Of a stretch of DNA of 41,828 nucleotides, positions 1,710-23,579 are shown in pieces. The notes under the pieces were generated by a model. That model was not told the origin of the DNA and searched no databases. It worked only from the letters and a program-made list of their open reading frames with translations. The first letter of the stretch is position 1, and each line of letters begins with the position of its first letter. The stretch is taken from the IMG/VR virus record IMGVR_UViG_3300025151_000091, positions 1-41,828 of that record; one strand, written 5' to 3'. The DNA is from a virus. A program made the translations under genes and the position numbers.

Positions 1710-1949
1710 ATGGGTTCTAGAGTAAAAACAGGTCCGAATCAAAAACCTTGTGGCGTTACCTACTTTCGAAAAGGTGGGGCTGTTTCTAGTAAGTCAAAGG
1801 GCAGCAAAATTTGCCCGGAGGGAAAAGCTTGGGCTAAACGAACTTTTGACACTTATCCAAGTGCTTATGCAAACTTAGCTGCATCTAAATATTGTAAAGA
1901 TCCTAACTACGCTAAAAAATCCAAAGGCGGTAAACGGAAAGGTCGTTAA
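1710..1949 (+). CDS. Small basic protein with KGG motif (79 aa)
   Basis: A strongly basic protein with a conserved-looking core: KICPEGKAWAKRTFDTYPSA followed by a second Cys (KYCKD). Near the N-terminus it carries FRKGGAV, a short motif that recurs in several other virion proteins of this window. It ends in KSKGGKRKGR. The start codon ATG lies two bases after the previous stop, and the stop TAATG overlaps the next start, so it is translated as part of the chain. No known domain is recognised; probably a minor virion or nucleoprotein component. Confidence 0.55.
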   Translation: MGSRVKTGPNQKPCGVTYFRKGGAVSSKSKGSKICPEGKAWAKRTFDTYPSAYANLAASKYCKDPNYAKKSKGGKRKGR

Positions 1950-2278
1950 TGGGCAAGCTAAAAGAATGGGTAAACCAAGAGTGGGTTCGTATAGACAGCT
2001 CAGGAAATATTGCGGGTCCCTGCGGTACGTCTAAAAACAAAAAGAATCCAGACCGGTGTTTACCTAAAGCTAAAGCTCAAAGTTTAAGTAAATCTGAAAG
2101 AGCCTCGACTGCTCGAAAAAAGAAACGAGAGGGCGCTAAAGGTAAACAGGTTGTGGCTAATACACAAAAAGCTAAAGTAACTAAGATGGAAAAAGGCGGC
2201 GTGGTTGCAATAGGTTGTGGTCAAATTTTGCCTGATAGACGAAAAATTACTACAGGTTCTGTTTCTAAAAGAGCATGA
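1949..2278 (+). CDS. Small basic protein with W-x-NxEWV and PCG/CLP cysteine pair (109 aa)
   Basis: Residues 1-45 hold KEWVNQEWVRIDSSG, then GPCGTSKNKKNPDRCLPKAK; residues 46-85 are a Lys/Arg/Ser/Ala-rich helix-like stretch. The C-terminal part contains MEKGGVVAIG, another instance of the GG motif. The arrangement resembles small unknown-function proteins in aquatic viruses, including some of giant viruses, in my recollection; this needs a profile search. It overlaps both neighbours by one to four bases. Confidence 0.5.
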   Translation: MGKLKEWVNQEWVRIDSSGNIAGPCGTSKNKKNPDRCLPKAKAQSLSKSERASTARKKKREGAKGKQVVANTQKAKVTKMEKGGVVAIGCGQILPDRRKITTGSVSKRA

Positions 2279-2856
2279 CTTTTTTTATAGGAGATCCCGT
2301 AGAGAAAGCGGTAGTGGATGAGATTAAATCTTGGTCTAATAAAGTATTAGAAAAACCTAACGTTTTTTTTAATAATTTACCGCCTTGTCCTTACGCTAAA
2401 AAGGCTTGGCTAGAAGATAAAGTAGCGATTTTGTTTAAAAATGAAGATAGTTATCAAGATCTGTATTCAGCTTTGTCTCAGTGGGAAGACACCTATGACT
2501 TAGCTATATTAGTAGATTTTGCATTTGAAAAAGATCCTGATTTGTTTCACCAGTTTTTAAATGACGTAAACCTTGGAATTTCAAAAGGGTTTTTTATAGA
2601 CAGCGATATGTGGGTTATGGGTTTTCATCCTTATGATGAAGCTCCAGAGTTTTCGGAAGAGGCTGATTTTGAACCTTTGACGGACGTGAACTACGCTATG
2701 ATTTTTGTTCAAAGGCTCTCTAAATTGCAGGAGTCTGCATACAAAATAAAGAAAAACGGGTATTATGATAATTATGATGAGGAGTATAATGCTTCTTATA
2801 TTTTTAAACGTAGAGAAGACTTTTACAGGAGACTAAAAAATGGCAATGGCACCTAA
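2275..2856 (+). CDS. DUF1415-like protein (193 aa)
   Basis: The N-terminal PPCPYAKKAWLEDKVAI, the central LAILVDFAFEKDPDLFHQFL, and the later GFHPYDEAPEFSEE follow the layout I know from the cellular DUF1415 family (a Cys-Pro-x-Ala motif after an Asn, a strand, a DF..FN.FL segment and a FHP motif). The C-terminal TNRSPYP stretch of that family is replaced by TDVNYAMIFVQRL. The biochemical role of DUF1415 is not established. Its presence inside a virion operon, between basic proteins and connector genes, is odd. It starts by ATGA overlap with the preceding gene. Confidence 0.5.
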   Translation: MTFFIGDPVEKAVVDEIKSWSNKVLEKPNVFFNNLPPCPYAKKAWLEDKVAILFKNEDSYQDLYSALSQWEDTYDLAILVDFAFEKDPDLFHQFLNDVNLGISKGFFIDSDMWVMGFHPYDEAPEFSEEADFEPLTDVNYAMIFVQRLSKLQESAYKIKKNGYYDNYDEEYNASYIFKRREDFYRRLKNGNGT

Positions 2857-3010
2857 AAAAATGCGCGGTGGCGGCATGGTTAAAAAAATGCGCGGTGGCG
2901 GCATGGTTAAGAAAATGAAAAAAGGCGGTGAGGCTACTAACGGCATGAGCGTTGCAGAGCTTCGTAAAAAAGCTAAAGAAAAAGGGTACAAATTAGTTAA
3001 GGCAACTTAA
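2840..3010 (+). CDS. 56-aa MRGGGMVKK-repeat protein
   Basis: A short frame running from ATG at 2840, eight bases after an AGGAG-like site (AGGAGA at 2827), to TAA at 3010. It overlaps the end of the previous gene by 17 bases. The protein reads MAMAPKKMRGGGMVKKM, repeats the nine-residue MRGGGMVKK unit, adds MKKGGEA, and ends in a Lys/Ala helix. Two identical 27-bp DNA units encode the repeat. It is extremely basic with no acidic residues in the first half. Likely a minor virion component; function unknown. Confidence 0.6.
   Translation: MAMAPKKMRGGGMVKKMRGGGMVKKMKKGGEATNGMSVAELRKKAKEKGYKLVKAT
2854..2907 (+). repeat. Two identical tandem 27-bp units
   Basis: Positions 2854-2880 and 2881-2907 are identical and in frame, encoding the nine-residue MRGGGMVKK repeat; a degenerate third start follows. 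Identity at every position points to recent slippage or recent duplication. Confidence 0.9.
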
Positions 3011-3012
3011 TC

Positions 3013-3684
3013 ATGGCTACGTCAGGGAGCAAAGATTTTGAGCTAGATGTAGCAGACTACATCGAAGAAGCTTTTGAGCGTTGTGGCTTAGAAGTTAGGA
3101 CCGGTTACGACCTAAAGACAGCTAAACGTTCACTTAATCTGATGCTTGCTGATTGGGCTAACCGTGGGTTAAATCAATGGACCATTAAACAACGGTCCTT
3201 ATCGCTTGTAGTAGATGACGGCGAGTATGATTTATCTGCGGACGTAATAGACGTTTTATCTGTTGTTGTTAGGGTATCCAGTACGGATTATTCCTTAGAG
3301 CGATTAAGCCGCGATGAATATTTAACCATACCTACTAAAACGACATCGGGGCGACCTAATCAGTTTTTTTTAGACAGGCAACTTACGCCTAATTTGAAAA
3401 TATGGCCTGTCCCGGATAGTTCTAGTTCGTACACTATATATTATGATGCTTTGACCCGGATGGATGACGCTGACACTTTTACTAACACAATGGATCTTCC
3501 CTTTAGATTCTATCCTTGTTTGGCGGCGGGTTTGGCGTATTACTTATCTTTAAAGAAAAACCCTAAAATGACTCCGATGTTGAAAACAATATATGAAGAG
3601 GAGTTTCAAAGGGCTGCCGAAGAAGACCGGGATAGAGCTTCTTTTAACGTTGTACCAAAGTTTAGTTATTACAGGTCAGGATAA
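3013..3684 (+). CDS. Head-to-tail connector, P22 gp4/T7 gp11-like (223 aa)
   Basis: The N-terminal half has the connector pattern of a helix with an invariant-looking ERCGLE, a Tyr, then AKRSLNLMLADWANRG, matching the A-x-x-x-L-x-x-M-x-x-W-x-x-x-G spacing of P22 gp4-type head-completion proteins. The middle (LVVDDGEYDLSADVIDVLSV) is beta, and a C-terminal helix pair FRFYPCLAAGLAYYLSLKK follows. These proteins form a ring between portal and nozzle and seal packaged DNA. It is followed by an ATGA-type junction to the next structural gene. Family known; exact assignment by memory of pattern. Confidence 0.7.
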   Translation: MATSGSKDFELDVADYIEEAFERCGLEVRTGYDLKTAKRSLNLMLADWANRGLNQWTIKQRSLSLVVDDGEYDLSADVIDVLSVVVRVSSTDYSLERLSRDEYLTIPTKTTSGRPNQFFLDRQLTPNLKIWPVPDSSSSYTIYYDALTRMDDADTFTNTMDLPFRFYPCLAAGLAYYLSLKKNPKMTPMLKTIYEEEFQRAAEEDRDRASFNVVPKFSYYRSG

Positions 3685-3989
3685 TGGCTAAATTTGCATC
3701 AGGAAAAGACTCTTACGCAATTTGCGACAGATCAGGTTTACGGTATCCGTATAAAGTAATGCGTAAAGAATGGAACGGTTTGCGTGTTGGACCTGATCAA
3801 TATGAGCCAAAGCATCCGCAGTTAGGTCCTTTTAGAAAAGTAGTAGATCCGCAAGCTTTGCAAAATGCTAGACCTGACCGAACTGAGCCTATGGATGTCT
3901 ATGTAGGCGTTCCCACTGTTGAAGATGAAAATTTAAGACCAGCTACCGGTTTTGGTCAAGTTGGTTTGGTTACGGTGACGACATCATGA
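3684..3989 (+). CDS. Conserved structural protein with C-terminal GxVTVTTS tail (101 aa)
   Basis: The N-terminal part reads YAICDRSGLRYPYKVMRKEW then NGLRV and YEPKHPQLGP, a compact signature shared with unknown proteins next to connector genes in aquatic phages (recollection). One Cys only, so no classic zinc site. The last 11 residues GQVGLVTVTTS match the tail of the gene ending at 12373 and the repeats of the gene at 5383. The final codons overlap the ATG of the adaptor gene. Probably a connector-associated virion protein. Confidence 0.55.
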   Translation: MAKFASGKDSYAICDRSGLRYPYKVMRKEWNGLRVGPDQYEPKHPQLGPFRKVVDPQALQNARPDRTEPMDVYVGVPTVEDENLRPATGFGQVGLVTVTTS

Positions 3990-4636
3990 GTTTTACATAT
4001 GCACAATTAAAAACAGCCATTCAAGATTACACAGAAAACGATGAAACATCGTTTGTAAACAATCTGTCCATTTTTATCCAACAGGCGGAAGAACGCATCT
4101 TAAAAAACGTTCAACTTAGCTTATTTAGAAAAAATGTGAGTGGAACTATGACGGCCTCCAATAAATATTTGGCGGCCCCTAGCGATTTTTTAGCGCCTTT
4201 TTCCTTGTCTTTTGTTGACGCTAACAGTGAACATCAGTTCTTAGAATTTAAGGATGCTGATTTTATACAGTCTTTTAACCCCAACGGGGCTACAGAAGGA
4301 AATCCTAGGTATTATGCTGTCTTTGATGTGGATAATTTTATTTTAGGGCCCACACCTAATGCGGCTAGAACGGTCGAGCTACATTATTTTTATCGCCCCG
4401 CTAGTTTAACAGCGGGAGCCGACAGCGGCACTACGTGGTTAAGTGAAAATGCTCAAATAGCCATGCTTTATGGAAGCTTGTTAGAAGCGTATACTTATAT
4501 GAAAGGTGAGCAAGATTTAGTAGCTTTGTATGAAAAACGTTTTGGTGAAGCTTTAGTTGGAATGAAGATGCTGGGTGAAGCTAAAGAAGTTACCGATGAA
4601 TATAGGGTTGGTAAGGTTATTAGGGCTAAACAGTGA
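3986..4636 (+). CDS. Phage head-tail adaptor protein, SU10-adaptor-like (216 aa)
   Basis: The start MSFTYAQLKTAIQDYTEN, the following ETSFVNNLSIFIQQAEERI, the strand KYLAAPSDFLAPFSL and the C-terminal helix LYGSLLEAYTYMKGE are the hallmarks I associate with phage adaptor proteins of the SU10 type. These build a dodecameric ring joining portal to tail. A segment RPASLTAGADSGTTWLSENA precedes the helical part as expected. The gene overlaps its neighbours by four bases on each side, keeping subunit ratios linked. Confidence 0.75.
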   Translation: MSFTYAQLKTAIQDYTENDETSFVNNLSIFIQQAEERILKNVQLSLFRKNVSGTMTASNKYLAAPSDFLAPFSLSFVDANSEHQFLEFKDADFIQSFNPNGATEGNPRYYAVFDVDNFILGPTPNAARTVELHYFYRPASLTAGADSGTTWLSENAQIAMLYGSLLEAYTYMKGEQDLVALYEKRFGEALVGMKMLGEAKEVTDEYRVGKVIRAKQ

Positions 4637-4932
4637 GTATTCCTGCATTGGATTTAAATGTTACGCCGACCTTTAGTGTTGAGGTAAAAACCACGAGTAA
4701 TCGAGGGTTTACCCCAGAAGAGGTAGCGGAACGCTGTGCGGAGAAAATCATATCTATTTCCGATACAGCAAACCCAGTAATACGGGATCAAGCAAGAGCT
4801 TTTAAAAAACATTTAATTAAAGTCCTATCTTTTTACATGAGAGAAGCTATTAAAAGTGATCGAACCACTATTTATAACGCTTTGTCTGATGCGGGACATC
4901 AAGATTTAGCTGAATTAATAAGGAGAATTTAA
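4633..4932 (+). CDS. Unknown virion-operon protein with GTG start (99 aa)
   Basis: GTG at 4633 overlaps the TGA of the adaptor gene, so initiation is probably by coupling. The first 25 residues are extended and the rest is helical: EEVAERCAEKII, then ARAFKKHLIKVLSFYMREAI, and an end DLAELIRRI. It has no signal peptide or clear membrane segment. Similar small helical proteins occur between adaptor and fibre genes in aquatic podoviruses in my recollection. No function is assigned. Confidence 0.6.
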   Translation: MSIPALDLNVTPTFSVEVKTTSNRGFTPEEVAERCAEKIISISDTANPVIRDQARAFKKHLIKVLSFYMREAIKSDRTTIYNALSDAGHQDLAELIRRI

Positions 4933-4933
4933 C

Positions 4934-5383
4934 ATGGCTTTTTCAGGTAATTTCATGTGTACTTCCTTTAAAAAGGAATTGATGTTTGGAGCACATGACT
5001 TCGCAAACGGAGCAGACACGTTTAAGATGGCGCTTTACACGTCTTCTGCTAGTTTAAATGCGTCTACAACAGCGTATACCACAAGTAATGAGACGAGTGG
5101 AACGGGATATAGTGCTGGTGGTCAAGATTTAACTAACGTTGATCCCACCACTAGTAGTACAACGGCTTTTACCGATTTTACAGACGAAACATGGAGTTCT
5201 TCCAGTATTACGGCAAGAGGGGCGTTAATATATAATAGCACTCCTAATACGACTTCAATTTCGTTAACCAATCCTGCTGTCATTGTTCTTGACTTTGGCG
5301 CGGACAAAACTTCTACTACTGGAGATTTTACAGTCGTATTTCCAACAGCCGATGCAAGTAATGCCATAATAAGGATTGCTTAA
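4934..5383 (+). CDS. Beta-rich virion protein (149 aa)
   Basis: It follows an AGGAGAATTTAAC site. Its pattern is MAFSGNFMCTSFKKELMFG, then FKMALYTSS, then TGYSAGGQDLTN, ITARGALIYN, VLDFGADKTSTTGDFTVVF and a final AIIRIA. This is a widespread phage structural family in my memory, usually placed next to fibre genes. The Ser/Thr-rich sequence without Lys clusters suggests an exposed beta sandwich. The stop TAATG overlaps the start of the next gene. Confidence 0.6.
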   Translation: MAFSGNFMCTSFKKELMFGAHDFANGADTFKMALYTSSASLNASTTAYTTSNETSGTGYSAGGQDLTNVDPTTSSTTAFTDFTDETWSSSSITARGALIYNSTPNTTSISLTNPAVIVLDFGADKTSTTGDFTVVFPTADASNAIIRIA

Positions 5384-5886
5384 TGTCTGTTACCGTCACT
5401 TATACGGGCTGGAATAGTTCAGCTTCAGCATGGGGTGACGGGGGCTGGAGTCAAGATCCAGCTTTAACAGGTTTAACCGGGTCTGTTGGTTCGGTAACCG
5501 TTTCAGCTAACGCTGGCGCAAATGTTACGGGTCTTCAAGCACAAAGTGCCCTAGGGTCTGTAACGGTAGTAGGAAAAGCAAATATACCAGTTACTGGGTT
5601 AGCGGCAACTTCAGGAATTGGTTCGGTTACAGTAAACGCCGCATCTGTAGTCACTACAACAGGACTTTCCGCCACGGCTGTTGTAGGATCAGTTACTGCA
5701 CAAGGCGGTACGGAAATACCCGTTACCGGCTTGTCTGCTACTGCTTCTGTGGGGACCGTGTTGGTTTGGGGAGATATTGTTCCTAACCAAAATCCAAGTT
5801 ATAGTACGGTACAACCGTCTCAAAATCCAAGTTATAGTACGGTACAACCGTCTCAAACCCCTAATTGGGAAAAAATAGCCGCATAA
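5383..5886 (+). CDS. Repetitive beta protein with GSVTV repeats and Pro-rich tail (167 aa)
   Basis: After an N-terminal WNSSASAWGDGGWSQD segment, the protein has about five repeats of a 24-residue unit of the form VTGL-x5-8-[GV]SVTV. They start near residues 27, 46, 70, 94 and 116. It ends with two identical 11-residue NPSYSTVQPSQ units and a TPNWEKIAA end. The design suits a trimeric or Ig-like stalk with a flexible C-terminal linker. The same GSVTV ending is found on two other virion genes here. It is likely a collar, appendage or fibre component. Confidence 0.6.
   Translation: MSVTVTYTGWNSSASAWGDGGWSQDPALTGLTGSVGSVTVSANAGANVTGLQAQSALGSVTVVGKANIPVTGLAATSGIGSVTVNAASVVTTTGLSATAVVGSVTAQGGTEIPVTGLSATASVGTVLVWGDIVPNQNPSYSTVQPSQNPSYSTVQPSQTPNWEKIAA
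5788..5853 (+). repeat. Perfect tandem 33-bp repeat
   Basis: Two identical 33-base units (5788-5820 and 5821-5853), each encoding eleven residues with NPSYSTVQPSQ periodicity. Units are in frame; copy number could vary between strains. Confidence 0.95.
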
Positions 5887-5896
5887 GGTGTAAAAA

Positions 5897-7114
5897 ATGC
5901 CAAGCACATATACTACGAATAATGGTATTGAACTCATAGCCACCGGGGAACAATCGGGAACATGGGGCACTACCACCAATACCAACCTAAGTCTTCTAGA
6001 TACATCTTTAGATGGTCAAGTCACTATTACCTTGAGCAGCGCGGGATCTTCGGGGTCTCCGAACGCATTGCCGGTCACAAATGGAGCCGCTTCTAATGGT
6101 AGAAATCGTTTAGTTATTTTTAATGATGGAGGGGACTTAGGCGGCACCGCTTTTGTTCAACTCACTCCTAACGATGCTGAAAAAATTATTTACATACGGA
6201 ATAGTTTATCTGGAAGCAGAAGCATTTTAGTTTTTCAAGGAACGTATAATGCGTCAAACGACTATGAGGTTCCTGCGGGAACGACTGCCGTTATCTATTT
6301 CGACGGTGCCGGGACTGGTGCTGTTGCAGCTAATGTTTTTAATAACGCTTATTTTGATAGCTTGCGGTTGGGTTCTGTATCAGTTACCGCAATACTTGAC
6401 GAAGATAATATGGCTTCCGATAGCAATACTGCGTTGGCTACGCAACAATCTATTAAAGCGTATGTAGATACTCAGCTTACCGCAGAAGATTTAGATTTTG
6501 CGGGTGATAGCGGTACAGGTTCAGTTGATTTAGACAGTCAAAGTCTTACAATCGCAGGCACTTCAAATGAGATAGAAACGTCTGCAAGTGGTCAAACTCT
6601 GACGGTAGGTTTGCCCAGTGGGGTCACCATAGGGACATTAACTTTAACCAACGATTTGACGGTAGCTAACGGCGGCACAGGCGCATCGAGTGCTGCTGAC
6701 GCAAGAAGTAATCTTGGTTTAGTTATTGGTACAAATGTTCAGGCGTATGATGCGGATACAGCTAAAACTGATGTGGCTCAAACTTACACTGCGGGTCAGA
6801 GAGGTGAGATAACTGCACTCAGTGATGGTGCGACGATTACACCAGACATGGCAGATAGTAATAACTTTAGTGTAACTCTAGGTGGCAACCGGACACTTGC
6901 TAATCCAAGCAATCTTACCGCAGGGCAATCAGGTTCTTTTTTTATAACGCAAGATGGCACAGGCAGTCGGACTTTAGCATACGGAAGTCAATATGATTTT
7001 ATTGGAGGTACTGCTCCGACACTTACAACAACTGCAAGCGCAGTGGACAGGATAGATTATGTAGTTAGGACAACTGGCTCAATCCATTGTGTCTTTACGG
7101 GTAACTATTCATGA
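5897..7114 (+). CDS. Tail fibre protein (405 aa)
   Basis: The N-terminal MPSTYTTNNGIELIATGEQS followed by GTWGTTTNTNLSLLD is the common virion-attachment opening of many phage fibre proteins. The middle contains AYFDSLRLGS, TQQSIKAYVDTQL and the fibre hallmark VANGGTGASSAADARSNLGL. The C-terminal part (about 300-405) is a compact beta domain with SGSFFITQDGTGSRTLAYGS. No intramolecular chaperone motif is recognised. The gene ends in an ATGA overlap with the next fibre gene, suggesting a two-protein fibre. Confidence 0.75.
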   Translation: MPSTYTTNNGIELIATGEQSGTWGTTTNTNLSLLDTSLDGQVTITLSSAGSSGSPNALPVTNGAASNGRNRLVIFNDGGDLGGTAFVQLTPNDAEKIIYIRNSLSGSRSILVFQGTYNASNDYEVPAGTTAVIYFDGAGTGAVAANVFNNAYFDSLRLGSVSVTAILDEDNMASDSNTALATQQSIKAYVDTQLTAEDLDFAGDSGTGSVDLDSQSLTIAGTSNEIETSASGQTLTVGLPSGVTIGTLTLTNDLTVANGGTGASSAADARSNLGLVIGTNVQAYDADTAKTDVAQTYTAGQRGEITALSDGATITPDMADSNNFSVTLGGNRTLANPSNLTAGQSGSFFITQDGTGSRTLAYGSQYDFIGGTAPTLTTTASAVDRIDYVVRTTGSIHCVFTGNYS

Positions 7115-9492: not shown

Positions 9493-9494
9493 CT

Positions 9495-9956: not shown

Positions 9957-9962
9957 AGCAAC

Positions 9963-12373: not shown

Positions 12374-12603
12374 GTGACGAAACGATTATTACAATGGCTA
12401 ATGGCTCCACTTGGAGACCAGCCACCAGCCAAGATCTAATTCATTGTGCTAATTGCGGCAATGCGGTGGACACCCCTGAAGAATTACTATCCTATCCGTC
12501 TGGAAATTGCCCAGATTGCGGTAATTCATGGACGGGGACTGAAAGTAAAAGTACAATAATTCAAGTAACTATGCCTGAGAGCATATCTGGTGGAGCAGGA
12601 TAA
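12370..12603 (+). CDS. Zinc-ribbon-like small protein (77 aa)
   Basis: Two CxxC knuckles, CANC at about residues 26-29 and CPDC at about 47-50, are spaced 17 residues apart as in a zinc ribbon. The N-terminal TIITMANGSTWRPATSQD is extended. The gene overlaps its neighbours by ATGA and TAATG. In a virion operon this could be a structural zinc protein or an assembly factor; no catalytic residues are visible. Confidence 0.6.
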   Translation: MSDETIITMANGSTWRPATSQDLIHCANCGNAVDTPEELLSYPSGNCPDCGNSWTGTESKSTIIQVTMPESISGGAG

Positions 12604-14477
12604 TGGCTGAGATGACCGCAGAAATGGATCAAATACAAGTCCCTGACGGGGGTGTAGCTAGTTTCATGATGTCCGACGAGGACATTGCTAATTTAGAACG
12701 CGAAGAAGATCAACAGTTAGCCGAAGAAGTTTACGGCGGCGAGGGCATCAGTCAGTTTACGGATGTGGCGGCTCAGATGGCTTCTCTAGGCCGTTTTGGT
12801 GATGACGTTATTGTTCACGCTCAGACGGGTGAGTTGGTTATTCCTAAAAGGATTCTAGACGACAATCCTGAAATAAAACAAATGGTGTTTGAGCAACTGA
12901 TGGCTCAAGGGATTGAAGACCCTGAGCAGTATGTTGTGGGTTCTGGATCGGCTTCCATTAATCCAGAGACAGGTTTAGCGGAATATTTTTTTAAAGGAAT
13001 TAGACGAGCTATTTCCAAGGTCGCTAAAGGCGTAAAGAAGGTAGCCAGCAAGGTTGTTAAGGTAGCCAAAAAGGTTGCTCCGATTGTATTGCCGATTGCT
13101 TTGGCGATGACTCCTCTAGGTCCTATTTATGGAGCTGCTCTTGGCTCTGGTATTGGAACGTTAATGCAAGGGGGTAGTTTTAAGGATGCTCTTAAATCAG
13201 CAGCTATTTCGGGATTAAGTGGTGCCGCTTTCCAAGGCTTTAAGGGACCGGGAACATTTACTGAGAATATCGGTGTGGCCTTAGAAGCTCCGGGGGCTCG
13301 ATTTAGTCAAACCCTAGCGGGAGCCACTGGTCCGGATAAGTTCTTTAGGCCATATGTTGGCGACCCTGTTTCGCCAGCGGGTCAAACGCCAACGGGTTCT
13401 TCTACAGGTCCTTCTACTAGTCCTTCGGGCGCTTCGGAGTATTCTTTAGCGGGACAAGCCAACCGACAATCTGTTACGCCAGAAGGAGTTTTTGAGCAAG
13501 ACATTTCTAGAACGGCTCCATCTAGCTCTGGTACTGCTGATCTTAGGGGACCACAGGGAGGAATCTTTGAAGAAACCGTTTCTGACGCTGTTCAAAAACC
13601 AACCTCCTTTATGGATACGGCTAAAGATTATTATCAAAAAGGTAAAGACTTTTTATTCCCATCTGGGCCAAGTGGAGCAGATTTAGCTGCCGAACAAGCT
13701 AAATTTAGTGAGTCGTATGCTAAGGGTCTGATGGAAGCAAATCCCGGTTTAAGTGCCGCAGAGGCTAAAACTGCTGCGGATGCGGTTGCCCGACAACAAA
13801 TAACTATGGAAAGTATTCAACCGGGTATTATTAGTAAATACGGGCCTCTGGCCGCAACAGGTCTAGGAGCGATGTATTTAAGCGGCGGTTTTGACACGCC
13901 GGAGCCCACTCCAGAAGAAGACTCACCGCTTGGCGTGAAGCGTGGTCCGACAGGCGTGGACTTGTTCCAAGCAGATCCAACTAAATACACCGTAGACGTT
14001 GGCACAGCGGCTCCGGTAACGTATAGAGCCCCCGAGACGCAGTACCGAAGTTATTTAAACACCTTGAGTCCTCAGCTAACCTATAACCCAGTTTTACCGT
14101 CAAGCCGCCCTACCGAAGGCAGTCCTTTTTATAGAGACACTAGACGGGATTTAAACTTATTGGGAGAGTCGGTAGGCTATGAATTACGAGAGCCCCCTTT
14201 TTATAGAGACACTAGACGGGATTTAAACTTATTGGGAGAGTCAGTAGGCTATCAATTACGGGCAAAAGGTGGTGAGATATTTCCTCGAAGAACGGGCGGA
14301 ATAATGCCTGATGAGGGGGTGCCGGGCAAAGATAGCGTCCGGGCGATGTTAATGCCGGGTGAGTTTGTCATGACTACCGATGCAGTAAAGGGTATGGGCA
14401 ACGGAAACCTAAGACAAGGAATAAAAAACATGTATGGAGTTATGGCTAACCTTGAGAGAAAAGGAAGGATGGCATAA
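12603..14477 (+). CDS. Internal virion protein with cationic amphipathic helix (624 aa)
   Basis: Residues 60-100 carry GDDVIVHAQTGELVIPKRIL, a motif of phage tape or internal proteins. Residues about 131-158 (IRRAISKVAKGVKKVASKVV) are a Lys-rich amphipathic helix, followed by a hydrophobic, Gly/Ala-rich region to about 212. The middle is low-complexity Pro/Ser/Thr. Near 505-555 is a duplicated 24-residue unit, then AKGGEIFPRRTGG and GKDSVRAMLMPGEFVMTTDA, the 'AML.PGEFV' end typical of ejection and tape-measure proteins. I infer a DNA-ejection protein that inserts in the host membrane. Confidence 0.65.
   Translation: MAEMTAEMDQIQVPDGGVASFMMSDEDIANLEREEDQQLAEEVYGGEGISQFTDVAAQMASLGRFGDDVIVHAQTGELVIPKRILDDNPEIKQMVFEQLMAQGIEDPEQYVVGSGSASINPETGLAEYFFKGIRRAISKVAKGVKKVASKVVKVAKKVAPIVLPIALAMTPLGPIYGAALGSGIGTLMQGGSFKDALKSAAISGLSGAAFQGFKGPGTFTENIGVALEAPGARFSQTLAGATGPDKFFRPYVGDPVSPAGQTPTGSSTGPSTSPSGASEYSLAGQANRQSVTPEGVFEQDISRTAPSSSGTADLRGPQGGIFEETVSDAVQKPTSFMDTAKDYYQKGKDFLFPSGPSGADLAAEQAKFSESYAKGLMEANPGLSAAEAKTAADAVARQQITMESIQPGIISKYGPLAATGLGAMYLSGGFDTPEPTPEEDSPLGVKRGPTGVDLFQADPTKYTVDVGTAAPVTYRAPETQYRSYLNTLSPQLTYNPVLPSSRPTEGSPFYRDTRRDLNLLGESVGYELREPPFYRDTRRDLNLLGESVGYQLRAKGGEIFPRRTGGIMPDEGVPGKDSVRAMLMPGEFVMTTDAVKGMGNGNLRQGIKNMYGVMANLERKGRMA
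14124..14261 (+). repeat. In-frame tandem duplication, 72-bp period
   Basis: Copies at 14124-14189 and 14196-14261 differ at only two or three positions and encode PFYRDTRRDLNLLGESVGY twice. The short interval between copies also keeps the frame. It lies just before the GG-motif C-terminal domain of the internal protein. Confidence 0.9.
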
Positions 14478-15634
14478 TGGCCGTTGAAACCACAGAACAA
14501 ATAGTCCGCGAAGCGCCAGAAATAGAGGCGATTAAACTAGGGCTTTTAGAATCAGCAAAACAATTAGCCGATAAACCTGTAGCAATACCGGCCCAGCAGA
14601 TTGCGGGGTTTTCTCCGTTACAGCAAGCGGCTTTTGGGGCGGCGGAACAAGGCGTTGGTGCTTTTCAACCGTATTTAACCGAGGCGGGCTTTACGCTAGG
14701 TGATGCTCAAACTGCGTTGGGCGGAACAATGGCGGGTGCAACACCGTTTCAACAAGAGTCGGCAGCCGGTATACGACAAGCGATGGCGGGCATTAGCCCA
14801 CAAGTCGCGGCTTCTCAGTTAGGTATTGAAGGGGCGTTAGCCGGTGCGGCAGAAGCAACCGGTAGATTTGATCCGGCAGACATTGCGTTGTACCAAAGTC
14901 CTTATGAAGATTTAGCGGTACAACAAGCCTTAGCGGATATTGCTAGACAGGGAGAGATTCAACAACAACAGGTAGGCGCACAGGCCGTGGGCGCTGGAGC
15001 GTTTGGCGGGTCACGTCAAGCTATAGCCGAGCAGGAACTAGCTCGTAACATTTTGGACCAGCAAGCACGGACCGCGGCTCAGATGAGGGCTTCAGGGTTT
15101 GGCACTGCGGCGCAATTAGCAAGAGACGCTTATGAGCAACAACAAGCTCGTAAATTACAGACAGGTCAGTTAGGCATTCAAGGTGCACAGCAGGCCGGTC
15201 AATTAGGTTTGTCTGGGCAACAATTAGGCGGTCAATTAGCGCAAGGTCTTGGTAGTTTAGGTATTGATTACGGTGGATTAGGTTTGAGGCAAGGCGAGGC
15301 TTTGGGCACACTTGGTTTAAGACAGGCTTCTTTAGGTCAGCAGCAACAGGAGTTAGGGCAGCAAGAGGCAGGGTTCTTGTTTGATATTGGTCAGAGACAA
15401 CAACAGCAACAGCAAGCCGAGCTTGAGGCAGCACGGTCCACGGACCTACAAGCAGCGTATGAGCCGTATCAGCGTTTAGCCTTCTTGTCTGATATTTACA
15501 AAGGTGCACCATCTACACAAATGTCTGTAGCTGGGGCAAGTAGTCCTAGTGTATCGACGGGTGAGAAGCTTCTTGGATTGGGTATTGCAGGTCTTTCGGC
15601 AGCCGCCGGAGCAAGTAAAGCGGGGTTATTTTAA
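14477..15634 (+). CDS. Gln/Ala-rich internal virion protein (385 aa)
   Basis: Residues 135-210 hold YQSPYEDLAVQQALADIARQ and AVGAGAFGGSRQAIAEQELA, a signature I know from internal proteins of aquatic podoviruses. Residues about 225-320 are tandem LGxQGLGxQ-type repeats, including a run of six Gln. The C-terminal 25 residues (KLLGLGIAGLSAAAGASKAG) are Gly/Ala-rich and hydrophobic, so they could contact or cross a membrane. By position it is one of the ejection complex proteins. Long glutamine-rich helices would suit a trans-envelope conduit, which is inference. Confidence 0.65.
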   Translation: MAVETTEQIVREAPEIEAIKLGLLESAKQLADKPVAIPAQQIAGFSPLQQAAFGAAEQGVGAFQPYLTEAGFTLGDAQTALGGTMAGATPFQQESAAGIRQAMAGISPQVAASQLGIEGALAGAAEATGRFDPADIALYQSPYEDLAVQQALADIARQGEIQQQQVGAQAVGAGAFGGSRQAIAEQELARNILDQQARTAAQMRASGFGTAAQLARDAYEQQQARKLQTGQLGIQGAQQAGQLGLSGQQLGGQLAQGLGSLGIDYGGLGLRQGEALGTLGLRQASLGQQQQELGQQEAGFLFDIGQRQQQQQQAELEAARSTDLQAAYEPYQRLAFLSDIYKGAPSTQMSVAGASSPSVSTGEKLLGLGIAGLSAAAGASKAGLF

Positions 15635-18549
15635 TGATGAATCGAAATTTAATGAATCGACAGATGTTTAGAAAAGGCGGTGCGGCTTTTCCCGATCTTA
15701 GCGGGGATGGCAAAGTAACGCAAAAAGACATCTTAATAGGACGTGGTGTTGTGCCGATGCAAGAAGGCGGTGTGGCACCCATGTCTGCTCAGGCCATGAT
15801 GCCTGCGGCACCTCCGCAAGAGGCCATGATGCCGGAGATGGCGCAAGCGCAACAAGCGGGTATGGACCCCGCCATACTAGAAAGTATGTTAGCTCAAGCT
15901 AGTCAAGGTATTGCTTCACTAGACGAAGCTGAAGACTACGAGCAAGTCATGAATTCGATGAGAGAAAACGACGCTACCATTGAGGAGCGGCGAATGGAAC
16001 TTGCAGATATTGTAGGTGAGCAGGATGCTCAACAAACTCCAGAATCCGTTCTTACTTTAGTGCAACCCGTCATGATGATGGCAAAGGTTGATGAAGGTGT
16101 AGGGTCGTTAGCTCAAGACGAGATGACCGAAGAGGTAACTGGAGATATGGCCGGAGGCATTATGTCTACTGTCAATATGGGTTCTGAGGAGGGCCCTGCT
16201 CCTGTAAATTTTAACCAAGGCGGTGTAGTTGGAATGCAAGAGGGTGGAGATCCATTCACTGCGCCGCCTGCAAATATGATAAAAAGTCCTTTACAGCAAG
16301 AATACGAATTACAACGTGATTTGTACGGACAACTTTTAGATAAAGATGCCCAGACTAGAGCGCTCCAAGGTCAACAAGATTTGACTCAAGCGCAAATGTT
16401 GTTTGATTTAGCGCAGACCGGACTAGCAATCGCGGCCCCCGGCCCACAACGTATGAGTCTTGCTGAGAAACTTGCGTATGCTGCACAACAAACAGAATTG
16501 TTTCCTAAAATAGGTGCTCGTGCTGCTGAATTAGAAAAGTTTAAACAAGAACAAGAACAAGAGTCTCGTAAATTTGATATAGCTGCCGCCCAAGGTGCTA
16601 TTGACTTGCGTAATCAACGCCTAGCGGATGAGATGAAAGGAATTGATACCCCTTACGATATTCGAGTTATAGATCAAAAGGGTAATGTTATAGGTGTAGG
16701 ACGCGGTCCTGTTACTAAAAAAAGACAACGAGAGCTAGAGGAGATGTATCCAAATGCTTCTGTTCAATTTAGTCCTATTTCTACCGACGAAGATAAAGGA
16801 CCTGACTTTCAAACAATTCTAGATGATAAGGGTAAACCTCGCGGAACTTATGATCTTAACAATGCCAGTGATTTAATCAAGGCTAATCAAATTTTAAGTG
16901 ACAATAGAGATAACGGTTGGAGTCTTGGAAAACCTACGTTTTCTGCGGATAAAGATCAAAAACCGTATAACCTAATTAAAGGTGCAGATATTGTTGCGGT
17001 AATTCCCGGTTCTGATAAAGAAGCTGAGTTGTTAGGACTAGGTTACGCAGTTGCAGGCGCGGTTAGCTCACCAGACGAATATGACTTTAAGGGCGTAAAA
17101 CTTAAGATGGACGTTACGATTGATGGGCAACCCTATCAAGCGGGTCAACTTGTTAATTTAAACAGCCGTCAAATTGCAGCGTTAGATCCTACCGCAGTAG
17201 ATTTAACACCGATGACCAAAAAAGACTGGTTATCCATGTTTAAGATGTCCGAAGAAAAATACAATTCTTTAAGTGAAAATGAATTAAACATTTTATCGGG
17301 TCTAGCTACAGTAGAAAATTACTTTAGTAAGTTTGGCATGAGCAAAGAGAACTTCTTAGCGTTACCTGAAGAAAAACGTTTGAAGTTAGTGGGTCTTGCT
17401 CCTGAAGAAAAACTGATGACTTTAGCTAACAACTCTATTGTCTCGGTTAAAAGTAAAGAAGGCGGTGGTTTTGAAATAGAAACCCTTCACACTCCTGACG
17501 TATTTCAACTTGTTAAAGGGGAGAATGGGGAGTTATTACAGGTAGATGCCCAATCGGGTAAGGTAGTTACTTTAAGAGAAGCGGTCGATTCTAAAAAGCC
17601 TGAGTACAGAACAATCCGAGACACCCGAACCGACGTAGTTACTTACGTTGATATTAATACCGAAGAGGGTCAGAAAGCCATAGATAACGTTACCGCTGAA
17701 AATTTAGCAACGGGCGCTACCGTTCTAAGGATAGGCACCATTCCTGCGGATAAACAGCAAGCGGCTAAAGCTTACTACATTGAAGGTGAAAAACAAATAG
17801 TTCTGAGCTTTGACGGTGGAAGAACTTACGTTAATGCAGACGGCCAAGTAAAAGAAATTCCCACTGAGGATGCGGTTCCTGTAAGTGATACGATAGCTAA
17901 TCAAGTTTTGCGAGCAAGCAAGCTTAGACGGTTAGCTGGGGATCAATTAAGACAATACCTTGGCTCAGAAGCTCTTAACGTCAAGCAAGGTGAGCGGGGA
18001 GATACAAAACAACTTTCTGCACAACAAGCAAATAATGTTAGAACTGCTTACGAAGCGGCCTTAAATGGAACGGGAACTTATGCCAAATTCCAAGTTTTCT
18101 TAGATAACTATTTTGCAGGAGTAGCTTTACCTGAAAATGCTTTCCAACAAACTCAATCGGACAGGCAGTTCTTGGAGACTATAGTAATACTAGGCAGATC
18201 TGCTTTAGTGTTAAACCCTAGATTCCCTGTTGCTGAAATGGAAAGAGTACAAGGTCTTTTCCCCGATACAGAAGCTTTATTTGTTAACAATAAGACTCAA
18301 GCCAATAAATTGATCGAGTTAAAAGACGCTGTTTTAAAGCAGAAAAAACGTAATTTATCTGAGTTGGCAAACAACACAATGTTAGACCAAAAAGGCATGC
18401 AAGCTATTGTGTCTAACAACTCTGAAATTGATCGGTTGCTAGACTTGTTAGCCGGTGTACCGGATAAATATACGGGTCAAGATCTAGCGGACAGAGACGC
18501 TTTAGACAAAGTACTTCGAGAACAAAGAGAAAAGCGACTGAGGAAATAA
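15634..18549 (+). CDS. Large internal virion protein with N-terminal EF-hand-like loop (971 aa)
   Basis: Residues 21-32, DLSGDGKVTQKD, match the calcium loop D-x-[DNS]-x-D-G-x-hydrophobic-x3-D of EF-hand or dockerin repeats. GG motifs occur at FRKGGAA, MQEGGVAPM, FNQGGVVGMQEGGDP. Residues 55-110 are Met/Gln/Ala-rich; 210-330 are charged helices; the rest is a mix with YRTIRDTRTDVVTYVDINTE-type beta pieces and a helical C-terminus (residues 790-971). No enzymatic motif is recognised. It begins by TAATG overlap. It probably enters the cell with the DNA, as with T7 gp15/gp16; this is by position and size. Confidence 0.65.
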   Translation: MMNRNLMNRQMFRKGGAAFPDLSGDGKVTQKDILIGRGVVPMQEGGVAPMSAQAMMPAAPPQEAMMPEMAQAQQAGMDPAILESMLAQASQGIASLDEAEDYEQVMNSMRENDATIEERRMELADIVGEQDAQQTPESVLTLVQPVMMMAKVDEGVGSLAQDEMTEEVTGDMAGGIMSTVNMGSEEGPAPVNFNQGGVVGMQEGGDPFTAPPANMIKSPLQQEYELQRDLYGQLLDKDAQTRALQGQQDLTQAQMLFDLAQTGLAIAAPGPQRMSLAEKLAYAAQQTELFPKIGARAAELEKFKQEQEQESRKFDIAAAQGAIDLRNQRLADEMKGIDTPYDIRVIDQKGNVIGVGRGPVTKKRQRELEEMYPNASVQFSPISTDEDKGPDFQTILDDKGKPRGTYDLNNASDLIKANQILSDNRDNGWSLGKPTFSADKDQKPYNLIKGADIVAVIPGSDKEAELLGLGYAVAGAVSSPDEYDFKGVKLKMDVTIDGQPYQAGQLVNLNSRQIAALDPTAVDLTPMTKKDWLSMFKMSEEKYNSLSENELNILSGLATVENYFSKFGMSKENFLALPEEKRLKLVGLAPEEKLMTLANNSIVSVKSKEGGGFEIETLHTPDVFQLVKGENGELLQVDAQSGKVVTLREAVDSKKPEYRTIRDTRTDVVTYVDINTEEGQKAIDNVTAENLATGATVLRIGTIPADKQQAAKAYYIEGEKQIVLSFDGGRTYVNADGQVKEIPTEDAVPVSDTIANQVLRASKLRRLAGDQLRQYLGSEALNVKQGERGDTKQLSAQQANNVRTAYEAALNGTGTYAKFQVFLDNYFAGVALPENAFQQTQSDRQFLETIVILGRSALVLNPRFPVAEMERVQGLFPDTEALFVNNKTQANKLIELKDAVLKQKKRNLSELANNTMLDQKGMQAIVSNNSEIDRLLDLLAGVPDKYTGQDLADRDALDKVLREQREKRLRK

Positions 18550-18552
18550 ATA

Positions 18553-21500
18553 ATGGCCGAAAACATAGAAATAGATCCTATAACTGTTTCCGTAGATGAG
18601 CCTAAGCCTGAACTTATTTTAGGTTCTCAAGTTGATCTTCAAACTGAAGAAGCAGGAACGGGTTCACCTCTTGAAGCACAAGGGGTGACAGAATTTTCCT
18701 ATTCGTTGAGCACCGCTCCTTTCGCGTCTATCTCTAAAGAAGAGTTAGACTCTATAGCACAGTTGTATCAAGATAAAAAAACAAAATTTGTCCCCTCTTT
18801 TGCTAGACAAATAGCGGGAGAGTTAGCTGTAGAAGACCCGGCTTTTTCTTACGAAAACTTATCTTCCGGCAAAGGTGCTTTTTTTGAGTTAAATGAAAGC
18901 GAAACAATTAGAAACATGAGGCCTGAGTTAAGAGCGCTTTCAGACAGACAAATTATAGAACAATTTACGGTTGATCCAGAAGGTCGCCCGTTGACTAAAG
19001 CTACTCAGACGGAAGGTTTTTTTAGGGATGCAATTCCGCAATTTGGAGGGTTTGCTGGGGCTGTTGGTGGTGCTAAAACAGGGGTTAGAGTACCCGGACC
19101 TCCTCAAGTTAAACTTGCCTCTGGAACTGTTTTAGGGGTGTTAGGCGGATTAGGTCTTTTTAAAACAGGAAATCTAGCTACCGATGCTTTAATGGGTAAA
19201 GAAAGACCTTTGTTACCCGGAGAAAAAGTTGAATATGAAAAAGGAAGAACAGCCGCAGGGGTCCTTCCGTGGTTGTTTTTACCTTGGACTTTAAGCAAAA
19301 ACGTTTCTTTAGGCACGGCAGAGTACATTGCTAATTTAGCCAAAGGTTCGAAAACACCCGGAGGTGTAAAATTAGCGGAAAAAGCTGAAAAATTTTTACA
19401 AAGAACAGGGCAAGAGGGTAGAGAAAAATACATTCGAACTCCTCTTATTGAAGGTATTATCGGTTACGGTCAAGTACAGGGCGCGGGTTTTGCGGAAGAA
19501 ACCTTTGAAGATTCTGGGATTGCAAGAATTCTTTCTGAAACAGGGGGCGGAATTGGAGCGTCTCTTTTAGCTAACCCCGCACTTAATCTTTTTAGATATG
19601 GCGGTGAACTTTATAACACATTTAAAGGACTAGCCGAGGACATTTCAACAAAAGGTTTTAAAAGCGTTGTAGGAAATCCTTTAAAATTAAAAAGACAAAA
19701 TCTTGCGGTAAACAAAATAATAAATATTTTGGAAAAAGAAGCTCTTGACGTAATAGAGCTTCCAGAAAAGTTTACAGAAAAAGCAATTAATAGTTTACCG
19801 TCGTCTCAAAGAATAATTAGAGAACAAGAAAGAGACGAATATTTAAAAAAAGCACAGCAAGAATATGTCAACCTTGTAATTAACAATTTAGCGTCTGATG
19901 ATCTTGCAAAAGAGTTAATTGATGACGCTGGAAATCCAATTAACTTAACGGCCGGGCAAAAAGGAGGTAGCGCCTCTTTGCTTGCTATAGAAAAATCTTT
20001 AGACAAATTAGGTCAAGGTTTAGGGGACGAACGACGGGTAGCCTCAACTAAAGCAATTGCAGCATTACGAAACACCATATTGGCGTTGGCTCAAACAAAC
20101 GATAAAGAAGCAACTAAACTAGCCGCAGATATAGCAGAAAAAGTGTTTAGTTCCAACATGCAAAACGAACTGGAAGTAGCTAGTAAACGAATTATAGAGG
20201 CTGCTGAAAAAGTTTATGGAAAAAATCCAGAAAGCAATTTACTTATTTCGGAACGTCTATTTGACGTAGTTAACACTGAGTTAGGTTTAGCTAGAAGGCA
20301 AGAAAAAATATTGTGGAGAGCGGTCCCTGAAATAAACATAACTTCTTTTTTAGATCCAGAGGGAAACACTACCAATATCCCCGAGTTTATCCGTGCTTTT
20401 GACAATATCGGAACGACCCCTGAATATGTAGAAGAGTTGATTAAAGGACTTCCGGGCTTTGTTAAATTTGTAGCACGGAAGAAAAAAGAACTGGGCATCG
20501 GTGTTACAGAAGTAGCGGAAGATCAACTTTCTTTGTTTGAGGATGTTGCTCAGGAAGCCGTTGAAGAAGCCGGAGTAACTACTAAAGAACTTGCCGAGAT
20601 GAGAAGTTTAGTATTAGATTATGCAAGACAATTGACAGATCAGCCAAACAAAGCTCGAATTGCCTACGACATGGCCGACGCTCTTTTGTCAGACTTAAAT
20701 AATGCGCCGGATGTAGATGCCGATTGGAGAACGGCATATGACATGGCTAGAAGTTATTCTAAAGCTTTAAATGACACGTACACACGAGCTTTCGGAGGAG
20801 AAGTTTTAGCCAAAAAAAGATCCGGCGCGGAAAAAATGGCTCCAGAATTATTAGCTAAACGTCTCTTACAAGGTGGAAATGACCCTACTTATTTAAGGAT
20901 CGAACAAATCAATGAAATAGGTAGGTTTGCTGAAAAGTATGGTTTAGAGGGGGCCGAAGAAACTGTAGGCACTTTAGCCGGTTTAACTGAAACCATATTA
21001 AGGAACGCAAGAAAAGCTTCTTTTGATCCAGAGACAGGAGCAATTAATCATAAAACTTTAAAAAAATGGATCAACGATAACGCCGATTTAATGAACCAAT
21101 TTCCTGCTTTAAAAAGCGATTTAGAACAAGCATCGACGGCTAATGTTTTACTAGACCAAACTAAAAAAGCACACAAAGAGAGAATTGCTAAAATAAAGAG
21201 CCAAATAAGTTTTATGGACCTTCTTTCAAATGAAGTAGATAGTCCTACACTAGTAGTTGGAAAAGCTTTATCGAGCAAAAAACCCCTTACAGGTTTAAAT
21301 GAGTTAGCTCAAATTGTGGACAATCCTGCGTTACCGGAAGACGTTCGTCAGCAAGCTAAAAACGGATTAAAAGCAAGTGTATTAGAGTATGTTTTTACTA
21401 GAGCGGGGGGTTCGCATTCTGCAAACTTACGGCCAAGCGTAATATATGATTCTTTTTTCCGACCTATAAAAAATTCAATAAACGATATTAGTTTAGCTGA

Positions 21501-22278
21501 ATGGCTTAGGTCTAAAAAGTTAATAACCGAAGGTGAAGTAGAAAACTTAAGAACCATGCTAGCAGACATGGTTAAATATGAAGTTTCCGAGACTATTGGA
21601 GATGCCGAAAATATTGTAGAAGGTGCCGGTCCCATGTTAGACCTATATTTATCTATTACGGGTTCGGCTTTAGGTACGAGACTACAAAGACTCATGGGTG
21701 GAGAGGGGCCGGGGTCTCTCATTGCAGCCGGTAGAGGTGCACAAGCTATGCGTCAAGCGTTTCTTAACGTACCCCAAGGACTTCAAATTGATGTTATGAC
21801 GGAGTTAATGCAAAATCCTAAGTTGTTAGCGGAATTTATGAGAAAGCCTGCTTCACAAAGAGAAAGTCTTAGGATTCGAGAACGTTTGGCACAGACTTTA
21901 TTTAACTTGGGTTTATCCCCTTCCAAAGCATTACCGGCTCCAGTGTTTAGAGAGACGATGGAAGATGACGTGGAAAGATTATATTTGCCGGGTGAAGAGC
22001 CTGAACAAGACATCCCCGGAATAGACAGCCCCTTAGTACAACGCGAAAGATCACTTGACGTTCCTCCCACCGTCAGTGCAAGCGCCCCTGAACCGCGTCC
22101 ATCTATAGTTGCGAGAGCGCCCGTGGTCTCACGACCACCGACACCCCCAACCGCGGACAGTTCAGGGGTAGCTAGTTTATTACCCCCACAGTCAACCCCC
22201 GTATCACAACAACGATACGCAGCGGCTTACCCTAACGATCCTATTTCAGATCTTATTAGAATGCGAGGCACCGCTTAA
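18553..22278 (+). CDS. Very large internal virion/ejection protein (1241 aa)
   Basis: The largest gene of the window. Residues 1-60 are acidic and flexible; 78-110 read FVPSFARQIAGELAVEDPAF; 155-260 contain hydrophobic Gly-rich pieces (FGGFAGAVGGAKTG, TVLGVLGGLGLFKTG, GVLPWLFLPWTLS) that could insert in membrane. From about 370 to 1070 the chain is long, charged and predicted helical, with many Lys/Glu heptads. The end (1150-1241) is Pro/Ser-rich and closes with YPNDPISDLIRMRGTA. This matches the T7 gp16-like class in size and place, but no transglycosylase motif is recognised. Confidence 0.65.
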   Translation: MAENIEIDPITVSVDEPKPELILGSQVDLQTEEAGTGSPLEAQGVTEFSYSLSTAPFASISKEELDSIAQLYQDKKTKFVPSFARQIAGELAVEDPAFSYENLSSGKGAFFELNESETIRNMRPELRALSDRQIIEQFTVDPEGRPLTKATQTEGFFRDAIPQFGGFAGAVGGAKTGVRVPGPPQVKLASGTVLGVLGGLGLFKTGNLATDALMGKERPLLPGEKVEYEKGRTAAGVLPWLFLPWTLSKNVSLGTAEYIANLAKGSKTPGGVKLAEKAEKFLQRTGQEGREKYIRTPLIEGIIGYGQVQGAGFAEETFEDSGIARILSETGGGIGASLLANPALNLFRYGGELYNTFKGLAEDISTKGFKSVVGNPLKLKRQNLAVNKIINILEKEALDVIELPEKFTEKAINSLPSSQRIIREQERDEYLKKAQQEYVNLVINNLASDDLAKELIDDAGNPINLTAGQKGGSASLLAIEKSLDKLGQGLGDERRVASTKAIAALRNTILALAQTNDKEATKLAADIAEKVFSSNMQNELEVASKRIIEAAEKVYGKNPESNLLISERLFDVVNTELGLARRQEKILWRAVPEINITSFLDPEGNTTNIPEFIRAFDNIGTTPEYVEELIKGLPGFVKFVARKKKELGIGVTEVAEDQLSLFEDVAQEAVEEAGVTTKELAEMRSLVLDYARQLTDQPNKARIAYDMADALLSDLNNAPDVDADWRTAYDMARSYSKALNDTYTRAFGGEVLAKKRSGAEKMAPELLAKRLLQGGNDPTYLRIEQINEIGRFAEKYGLEGAEETVGTLAGLTETILRNARKASFDPETGAINHKTLKKWINDNADLMNQFPALKSDLEQASTANVLLDQTKKAHKERIAKIKSQISFMDLLSNEVDSPTLVVGKALSSKKPLTGLNELAQIVDNPALPEDVRQQAKNGLKASVLEYVFTRAGGSHSANLRPSVIYDSFFRPIKNSINDISLAEWLRSKKLITEGEVENLRTMLADMVKYEVSETIGDAENIVEGAGPMLDLYLSITGSALGTRLQRLMGGEGPGSLIAAGRGAQAMRQAFLNVPQGLQIDVMTELMQNPKLLAEFMRKPASQRESLRIRERLAQTLFNLGLSPSKALPAPVFRETMEDDVERLYLPGEEPEQDIPGIDSPLVQRERSLDVPPTVSASAPEPRPSIVARAPVVSRPPTPPTADSSGVASLLPPQSTPVSQQRYAAAYPNDPISDLIRMRGTA

Positions 22279-23579
22279 TGGCGATACCCCGGTTTAGCTT
22301 TGGGGCTGGTTCAAATCCTTTTTACGATCCCAATCGGATACTGGTTCCAACGCAATTGTCTGCGGCTGATCGTGAAAAAGCGGATAAATTTCAAGCCGAA
22401 TCAAAAGCTTACAATGAGGCGATGGAAAAGTTTAGGAGAGAAGCTGAAGCGTACAACGCTCAGGTGGAAGCCTTTAACAGGGGTTTAGACACGGCTCCGG
22501 TTACAACACCAAGCGTTCCCAAAATAGATTCTTCTAGTAGCCGTGGTGGTTATAACCCCAACCCCGCACAAATGTTTGATTCGCGTGATCTTCCTAAATC
22601 CACGCCTGCTCCGACACCTTCGTCAACCGTACCTCAGTTCAACGTAACGGCTCCTGTGCGACCAGCAGATCCCAGTTTTACACAAGCCGATATGGACGCT
22701 TTTGATGCAGAGGCCACGGCCCGCGCACAACAACTGCAACGTTCTCGACAAACGGCGGTGGATCTTTTTCAAAATCCGGGGTATTTTTCCCGAATGTACG
22801 GTATTGGTTCGCTTAGTTTCGAAGAAGGCGGGGATGTACCTTTTTTCTTAGAGGCAGAACCAGCAAGATCTAAGGTTCCTTCTCAAGAAGAGCTTACTAA
22901 AGCACTATTACGATACTTTCCGGTGCTACAGCTACTAAACAAAACTTCAAAAATTTATACAGAGTTGGTCCCTGACCTAATTAATACTTCGGTAAAAATA
23001 ATTAAAAACCCTGAATCAACAGAAGAAGAATATAAAAACCTTAATTTCCGATTAAAAAATAGAGCTGATTCAATTTTAAACATGTTTGGTACTTCTACTG
23101 AAGAACTTATGCCCCGCGACAAAGAACCTGTTTACAAAACGGAGTTCGAAGAAGGCGGCGCGGTAGGTGAGGGGATTGCAAGTTTACGTCCTTCGAAAAC
23201 AACAAGGGGACTAGCTCCTTACGGCATTAGATACAGCGGAGAAGGTGCAAAAGGGTTAGGTTATTTTGGAGAAATAACGTCTCCAAGTGGTCACGTTGTG
23301 ACTGAATATTCTTTGTATAACGAAGACATTGGCGAATACCCTTCAATCGTTCCTACGTTAACTTCAGAGGAACTACAAGATACTATCCGTAAATCTTCTC
23401 AAGGACAGAAACCTTCTGCACAAGTGATAATGAAAGCACGAAGGTATGCAAAAGATAGGTTATCGGAAGGTAAAAGTCCTTTTGCCGGTCCTACTGAATT
23501 ACGTTTTCCCGTGCCTTCAAAATCAGACGAGTACTTATTAAGCCGAATAGACCGTTTTTTAGAGCAGAAGAACCGCTAA
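22278..23579 (+). CDS. Virion protein with C-terminal 'SPSGHVVTEYS…PTLT' domain (433 aa)
   Basis: Residues 28-70 form a charged helix (ADREKADKFQAESKAYNEAM). The middle is Pro/Ser/Thr-rich, with GG motifs FEEGGDVPFF and FEEGGAVGEG bracketing a helical part. The last 130 residues hold GYFGEITSPSGHVVTEYS, EYPSIVPTLTSEEL and KARRYAKDRLSEGKSPFAGP, a domain I recall at the ends of phage internal proteins. Its activity is unknown. It is the last gene of the late operon and its 3' end overlaps an antisense small gene by 21 bases. Confidence 0.6.
   Translation: MAIPRFSFGAGSNPFYDPNRILVPTQLSAADREKADKFQAESKAYNEAMEKFRREAEAYNAQVEAFNRGLDTAPVTTPSVPKIDSSSSRGGYNPNPAQMFDSRDLPKSTPAPTPSSTVPQFNVTAPVRPADPSFTQADMDAFDAEATARAQQLQRSRQTAVDLFQNPGYFSRMYGIGSLSFEEGGDVPFFLEAEPARSKVPSQEELTKALLRYFPVLQLLNKTSKIYTELVPDLINTSVKIIKNPESTEEEYKNLNFRLKNRADSILNMFGTSTEELMPRDKEPVYKTEFEEGGAVGEGIASLRPSKTTRGLAPYGIRYSGEGAKGLGYFGEITSPSGHVVTEYSLYNEDIGEYPSIVPTLTSEELQDTIRKSSQGQKPSAQVIMKARRYAKDRLSEGKSPFAGPTELRFPVPSKSDEYLLSRIDRFLEQKNR

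Follow-up and report, generated by a model that had tools for sequence, protein, structure and literature searches.

A recurrent GG motif in late proteins of a virus related to pelagiphages: a possible docking tag of internal proteins

Known signals of internal proteins and the late genes of the window

The loading of internal proteins is understood in few phages, mainly in T4. T4 internal proteins bear a capsid targeting sequence (CTS): in this phage the first 10 residues suffice to carry proteins into the head, and CTS-like sequences are present on other basic proteins of T4-related phages (PMC9026906, PMC7411985). The CTS is the closest functional parallel to the short GG motif considered here, which occurs in late proteins of the IMG/VR record IMGVR_UViG_3300025151_000091 (positions 1 to 41,828, the whole stretch analyzed, hereafter the window): both are short peptides on dissimilar, often basic proteins that are internal or, in the window, predicted to be so. 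However, the T4 CTS is N-terminal, occurs singly and is cleaved off by the gp21 protease at a motif with Glu as its last residue, whereas the GG motif, with several copies, lies at either end or in the middle of its proteins, and no protease was recognized in a relative. Its position is N-terminal in 15634 and in the gp84 family of phage HTVC027P, and internal or C-terminal elsewhere. By position and known processing, the GG motif is therefore not a member of the T4 CTS class, and no sequence relation is claimed. A literature search found no published description of the motif.

The window, a 41.8-kb virus record, begins with a single forward late-gene cluster spanning the first 23.6 kb, with replication genes after it. 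The cluster contains genes of small basic proteins, the connector-like 3013 and 3986, the fibre-like 5897 and 7111, 9963, a large structural protein of the virion, and five other large proteins (12603 to 22278), the functional labels of the large proteins being predicted largely from gene order. The late tagged proteins are called virion proteins by virtue of gene order and homology, and gene order suggests that they are located inside the head. The pelagiphages HTVC027P and HTVC023P are related isolates with many late gene families in common with the window, and the families common to these isolates include the capsid gene found in close relatives of the window. Phage DSL-LC04 is a more distant relative, in which the counterparts of window genes are annotated as a tail tape measure protein and a hypothetical protein, beside a "DNA transfer protein"; in both the window and DSL-LC04, the large-protein cluster comes after the stabilization/head-closure gene. 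The structural module of L313, a close relative, comprises terminase, portal, GroES-like protein, scaffold-like protein, capsid protein, M15 endolysin and holin; the GroES-like co-chaperonin gene (L313, 9009–9434) adjoins the scaffold-like and capsid genes.

The product of 14477 resembles a "DNA ejection protein" family weakly, but the T7 and P22 proteomes, the sources of the ejection proteins compared here, are unenriched in the motif. The C-terminus of 12603 (GG...DSVRAMLMPGEFVMTTDAV) matches phrog_934, phrog_6090 and other profiles of a tape measure element, several of which are matched better by gp81 of HTVC104P. Only this C-terminal element is common to 12603 and tape measure proteins: the profiles match residues 552–605 only, so that 12603 was not identified as a tail tape measure protein, and the gene order of the window is that of a short-tailed phage. 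The GG motif occurs in other window proteins without any tape-measure-like element, and the C-terminal GG of 12603, lying inside this element, may have a separate role. In 15634, the segment DLSGDGKVTQKD fits a 12-residue EF-hand loop, with Dockerin_1 as the best Pfam match; its score of 14.7 bits lies below the cut-off of 22.9, it forms one loop, not two, and it was not assigned to type I dockerins.

Occurrence of the motif in late proteins and in related phages

The strict pattern was defined as [FYWM]-x-[KEQR]-G-G-x-[VAI] and had eight matches among the 25 late proteins, which total 7,746 aa (Table 1), all with K, E or Q directly before GG. Residue shuffling gave an expectation of 0.25 copies, with none of 1000 shuffles reaching eight, and dipeptide-preserving shuffling gave 0.33, with none of 300 reaching eight, both treating family members as unrelated (kinship ignored). 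The early proteins contained no strict copy. It should be noted that GG alone was not enriched in the late proteins (68 vs. 63.5 expected), the enrichment residing in its surroundings: in the motif families, compared with GG contexts elsewhere, F or M was found at −3, Q, E or K at −1, and V, A or I two positions past GG. Among 80 related IMG/VR marine contigs, 96 strict copies were found in forward-strand ORFs and one in reverse-strand ORFs. The GG motif is thus real and not due to chance. The comparisons with shuffled proteins and with related phages had been proposed in the preliminary description of the motif, whose coordinates and gene assignments were correct; 8 of its 12 listed instances fit the pattern it gave, the exceptions being RGGGMV (twice), RAKGGEI and MQEGGDP, and of its "at least six late proteins" five carry strict copies, 12603 being a sixth only in a looser form.

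Table 1. Motif copies and adjoining features in the late genes of the window
Gene	Feature	Position	Strand	Remarks
1710 (1710–1949)	FRKGGAV	1764..1784	+	N-terminal to conserved basic domain (residues 31–78)
1949 (1949–2278)	MEKGGVV	2186..2206	+	immediately past conserved domain (residues 1–79)
2840	whole gene	2840..3010	+	lysine-rich 56-aa protein; MRGGGMV twice and MKKGGEA
2840	MRGGGMV, copy 1	2861..2881	+	off strict pattern
2840	MRGGGMV, copy 2	2888..2908	+	off strict pattern
2840	MKKGGEA	2915..2935	+	strict motif
12603	VPDGGVAS	12639..12662	+	variant; residues 13–20; G17 at least 90% conserved
12603	RAKGGEI	14259..14279	+	non-strict; residues 553–559; G556 invariant, G557 at least 90% conserved
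12603	tape-measure-like C-terminal element GGEIFPRRTGGIMPDEG...DSVRAMLMPGEFVMTTDAV	14268..14402	+	starts with the GG
15634	FRKGGAA	15667..15687	+	residues 12–18; both glycines at least 90% conserved; pLDDT <50
15634	EF-hand/dockerin-like 12-residue loop DLSGDGKVTQKD	15694..15729	+	residues 21–32; between two GG motifs
15634	MQEGGVA	15757..15777	+	residues 42–48
15634	DMAGGIMS	16144..16167	+	residues 171–178; M172 and G175 invariant
15634	FNQGGVV	16210..16230	+	residues 193–199; both glycines invariant
15634	MQEGGDP	16234..16254	+	weaker copy at residue 201; off strict pattern
22278	FEEGGDV	22818..22838	+	residue 181
22278	FEEGGAV	23145..23165	+	residue 290

According to homology to window genes, the motif was restricted to the families of 15634, 22278, 2840, 1949 and 1710; that of 12603, which has looser copies near its N-terminus (PDGGVAS) and C-terminus (RAKGGEI), was weakly enriched. 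The 15634 family had 287 loose matches against 18 expected, the loose form being present in 95/95 homologues, and the 22278 family had the motif in 8/8. A wider clustering of 3,384 proteins agreed with this survey and added the HTVC027P gp84 family (42/42 members, all starting RPMFRKGG-like); the motif was found in all 40 members of the small repeat family, in 15/24 of the 1710 family and in 29/46 of the 1949 family. No strict match occurred in the families of 9963 (102 homologues), 3013, 3986 and 14477, and one occurred in that of 18553; overall, in connectors, fibres, 9963, 14477 and 18553 the motif was absent or at chance level. Its lack in 14477 and 18553, both predicted to be ejection proteins, means that the motif is not required by every internal protein. 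A conserved protein encoded close to the capsid gene (GVFGxGGLxLARxP) gave a regular-expression match, GVFGQGGLILARMP, which was fold-element-like and was not counted. Records L093, L094, L097 and L102 have a recurring C-terminal tail, GGxVxLQxGIGSLYGKR, on another family, and GIGSL or GIASL stands close to GG in 22278.

Among isolates, HTVC027P, whose tagged proteins are gp44, gp47, gp82 and gp84, had 4 strict copies (0.42 expected) and HTVC023P had 3 (0.47 expected), while T7, P22, lambda, P-SSP7, HTVC010P and HTVC011P showed no enrichment; with the last three unenriched and HMO-2011 marginal genome-wide, a motif of all marine phages was rejected. An N-terminal form of the tag is common to unrelated proteins, namely RQMFxKGG, RPMFRKGG and, in HMO-2011-like phages (55/55), KQMELFxEGG. 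HMO-2011 gp49 starts with QMELFDEGGLLQEGG and continues into a GEFV element, which is also carried by HTVC104P gp81, the 12603 C-terminus and tape measure proteins; the GG was kept in 55/55 distinct relatives examined. Related loci of gp49 in IMG/VR numbered 282, and in L165 (38775–41060) the gene lies between head–tail adaptor and coat genes and encodes the GG tag followed by DDIPAQLSEGEFV. The EF-hand-like loop also occurred close to the C-terminus of a 305-aa protein, internally in HTVC104P gp81 and in gp44 (88 aa) of HTVC027P, with GG nearby in each of the three.

Conservation and position of the motif within proteins

In the alignment of 15634 (40 sequences, mean column identity 19%), the GG at residues 15–16 and 45–46 was at least 90% conserved and that at 196–197 was invariant. 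The mean conservation of these three pairs was 96%, as compared with 56% for the remaining disordered residues of the first 212, and V199, two positions past GG, was 97% conserved. In an AlphaFold model, all three pairs fell in segments with pLDDT <50 around a confident helical domain (residues 79–152), and the C-terminal GG sites of 12603 likewise lay in low-confidence segments, these disorder predictions being based on shallow alignments (40 and 46 sequences). The placing of the motif near boundaries between charged and structured parts, proposed earlier, holds for 15634: its three strict copies are found in segments of predicted disorder that flank folded parts. The glycine codon pairs of the first GG were diverse (13 kinds among 86), which indicates selection on the protein and not on the DNA. 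A fold search with the 15634 model gave no match at E <0.001. The N-terminal module of 15634 was confirmed at 466 loci among related contigs, whereas one weak match turned up when 84,980 species genomes were scanned; the module is therefore viral, and a cellular origin was rejected. In HTVC027P, gp84 comes after the 14477 homologue gp83, just as 15634 comes after 14477, so that both appear to stand in one gene slot and may be distant orthologues. They were rejected as detectable homologues: profile comparison left the tags unaligned and joined only 25 helical columns, with a probability of 62%.

In both 1710 and 1949, the tag is placed immediately next to the conserved domain. The HTVC023P homologue of 1710 has a related GG tail at the C-terminus instead of the N-terminus, while the 1949 homologue of C75C1, a genome with no strict copies, ends just short of the tag position. 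As the preliminary description stated, the proteins concerned are otherwise unrelated: the motif has moved between proteins, and late families without homology share it at variable positions. After its GG tag, 1949 has at the C-terminus (2207–2275) a second conserved element, approximately RGCGxVxxxRRKxTKGSV, present in many relatives. The coding DNA of 2840 (2840–3010) contains a near-perfect 27-base tandem repeat, whose copy number and sequence vary widely across relatives. In the 22278 family (22278–23579 in the window), the N-terminal half is conserved and the C-terminal domains are exchanged, which hints that the tag is borne by a carrier of changing cargo.

Docking and alternative readings

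Recurrence in unrelated proteins at variable positions, with conserved residues inside predicted disordered segments, is characteristic of short linear motifs, and we consider it about an even call that this one acts as a docking tag recruiting internal proteins into the head. In its layout, a hydrophobic anchor (F, M or Y) is followed after two residues by a GG kink, and one further residue separates the kink from a small hydrophobic residue (V, A or I). Its bearers, namely, the very large, predicted internal protein 15634, the modular 22278, parts of 12603 and three small basic proteins, would probably be held to a common partner during head building and hence be loaded into the particle, from which they could exit along with the DNA; repeated copies would strengthen the binding. 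Binding to a partner, the presence of that partner in the virion and a packaging purpose are what we infer from this pattern, with the scaffold-like protein, the portal and the motif-free 14477 and 18553 as candidate partners only. The preliminary description had suggested either docking or cleavage. Assembly docking fits best, the near-invariant residues being repeated, situated in predicted disorder at domain edges, and absent from connectors and fibres.

The cleavage half of that suggestion, in which a phage or host protease would cut after GG during head maturation or ejection and remove propeptides, was not borne out and appears quite unlikely. GG precedes cleavage sites in other systems, some copies lie near N-termini, and phage ejection proteins can be processed, the database record of P22 gp7 noting a host-cleaved N-terminus. 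However, no head maturation protease of a known type was recognizable in the structural module of L313, which makes cleavage less likely, and Peptidase_S78 was not found in four related records; moreover, the residue after GG is variable while the residue two past it is conserved, and cuts at every copy would shred the tandem copies of the 56-aa 2840 protein. It is unlikely, though less so, that the motif makes internal proteins bind one another in an internal core or ejection channel, with neither a separate receptor nor a loading role. Several copies per protein, tandem copies in the small 2840 protein and the presence in proteins of a single gene cluster agree with such binding, but 14477 and 18553, the predicted core ejection proteins, are without the motif, and no regular structure is predicted for it.

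Contact with nucleic acid, as in an RGG box, with basic proteins condensing the packaged DNA, would suit the lysine-rich 2840 protein with its KKMRGGGMVKKM repeats; it is nevertheless very unlikely, since acidic and neutral copies are numerous (FEEGGDV, MQEGGVA, FNQGGVV), the conserved positions are hydrophobic anchors and not arginines, and only the 2840 repeats have the arginine of an RGG box before GG. Somewhat less probable again is that each family retains the motif as an ordinary element of its fold, for example a tight turn, that serves the local structure: GG turns are common and the family near the capsid gene has a match of this type, but the window copies lie in predicted disorder and the tag stands at opposite ends of homologous proteins. 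A chance or low-complexity artefact has a negligible probability, even though several of the segments hosting the motif are rich in Met and Pro and 2840 is a DNA repeat; it is contradicted by both kinds of shuffling, the strand control, the restriction to families and the codon diversity, and a chance origin was ruled out accordingly.

Beyond docking in the window, the GG tag, the calcium-binding-like loop and the GEFV element could form a kit, shuffled among unrelated proteins, that decides which of them enter the particle. It is doubtful, yet conceivable, that such a loading code is portable across several short-tailed marine phage lineages (relatives of HTVC023P/HTVC027P, HTVC104P and HMO-2011-like phages), with calcium perhaps releasing the cargo on ejection, the calcium-rich outside serving as the trigger. 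If the docking reading is true, such a shared tag would account for the loading of varied proteins in related marine phages, and late genes of unknown function could be flagged from sequence as likely packaged cargo.
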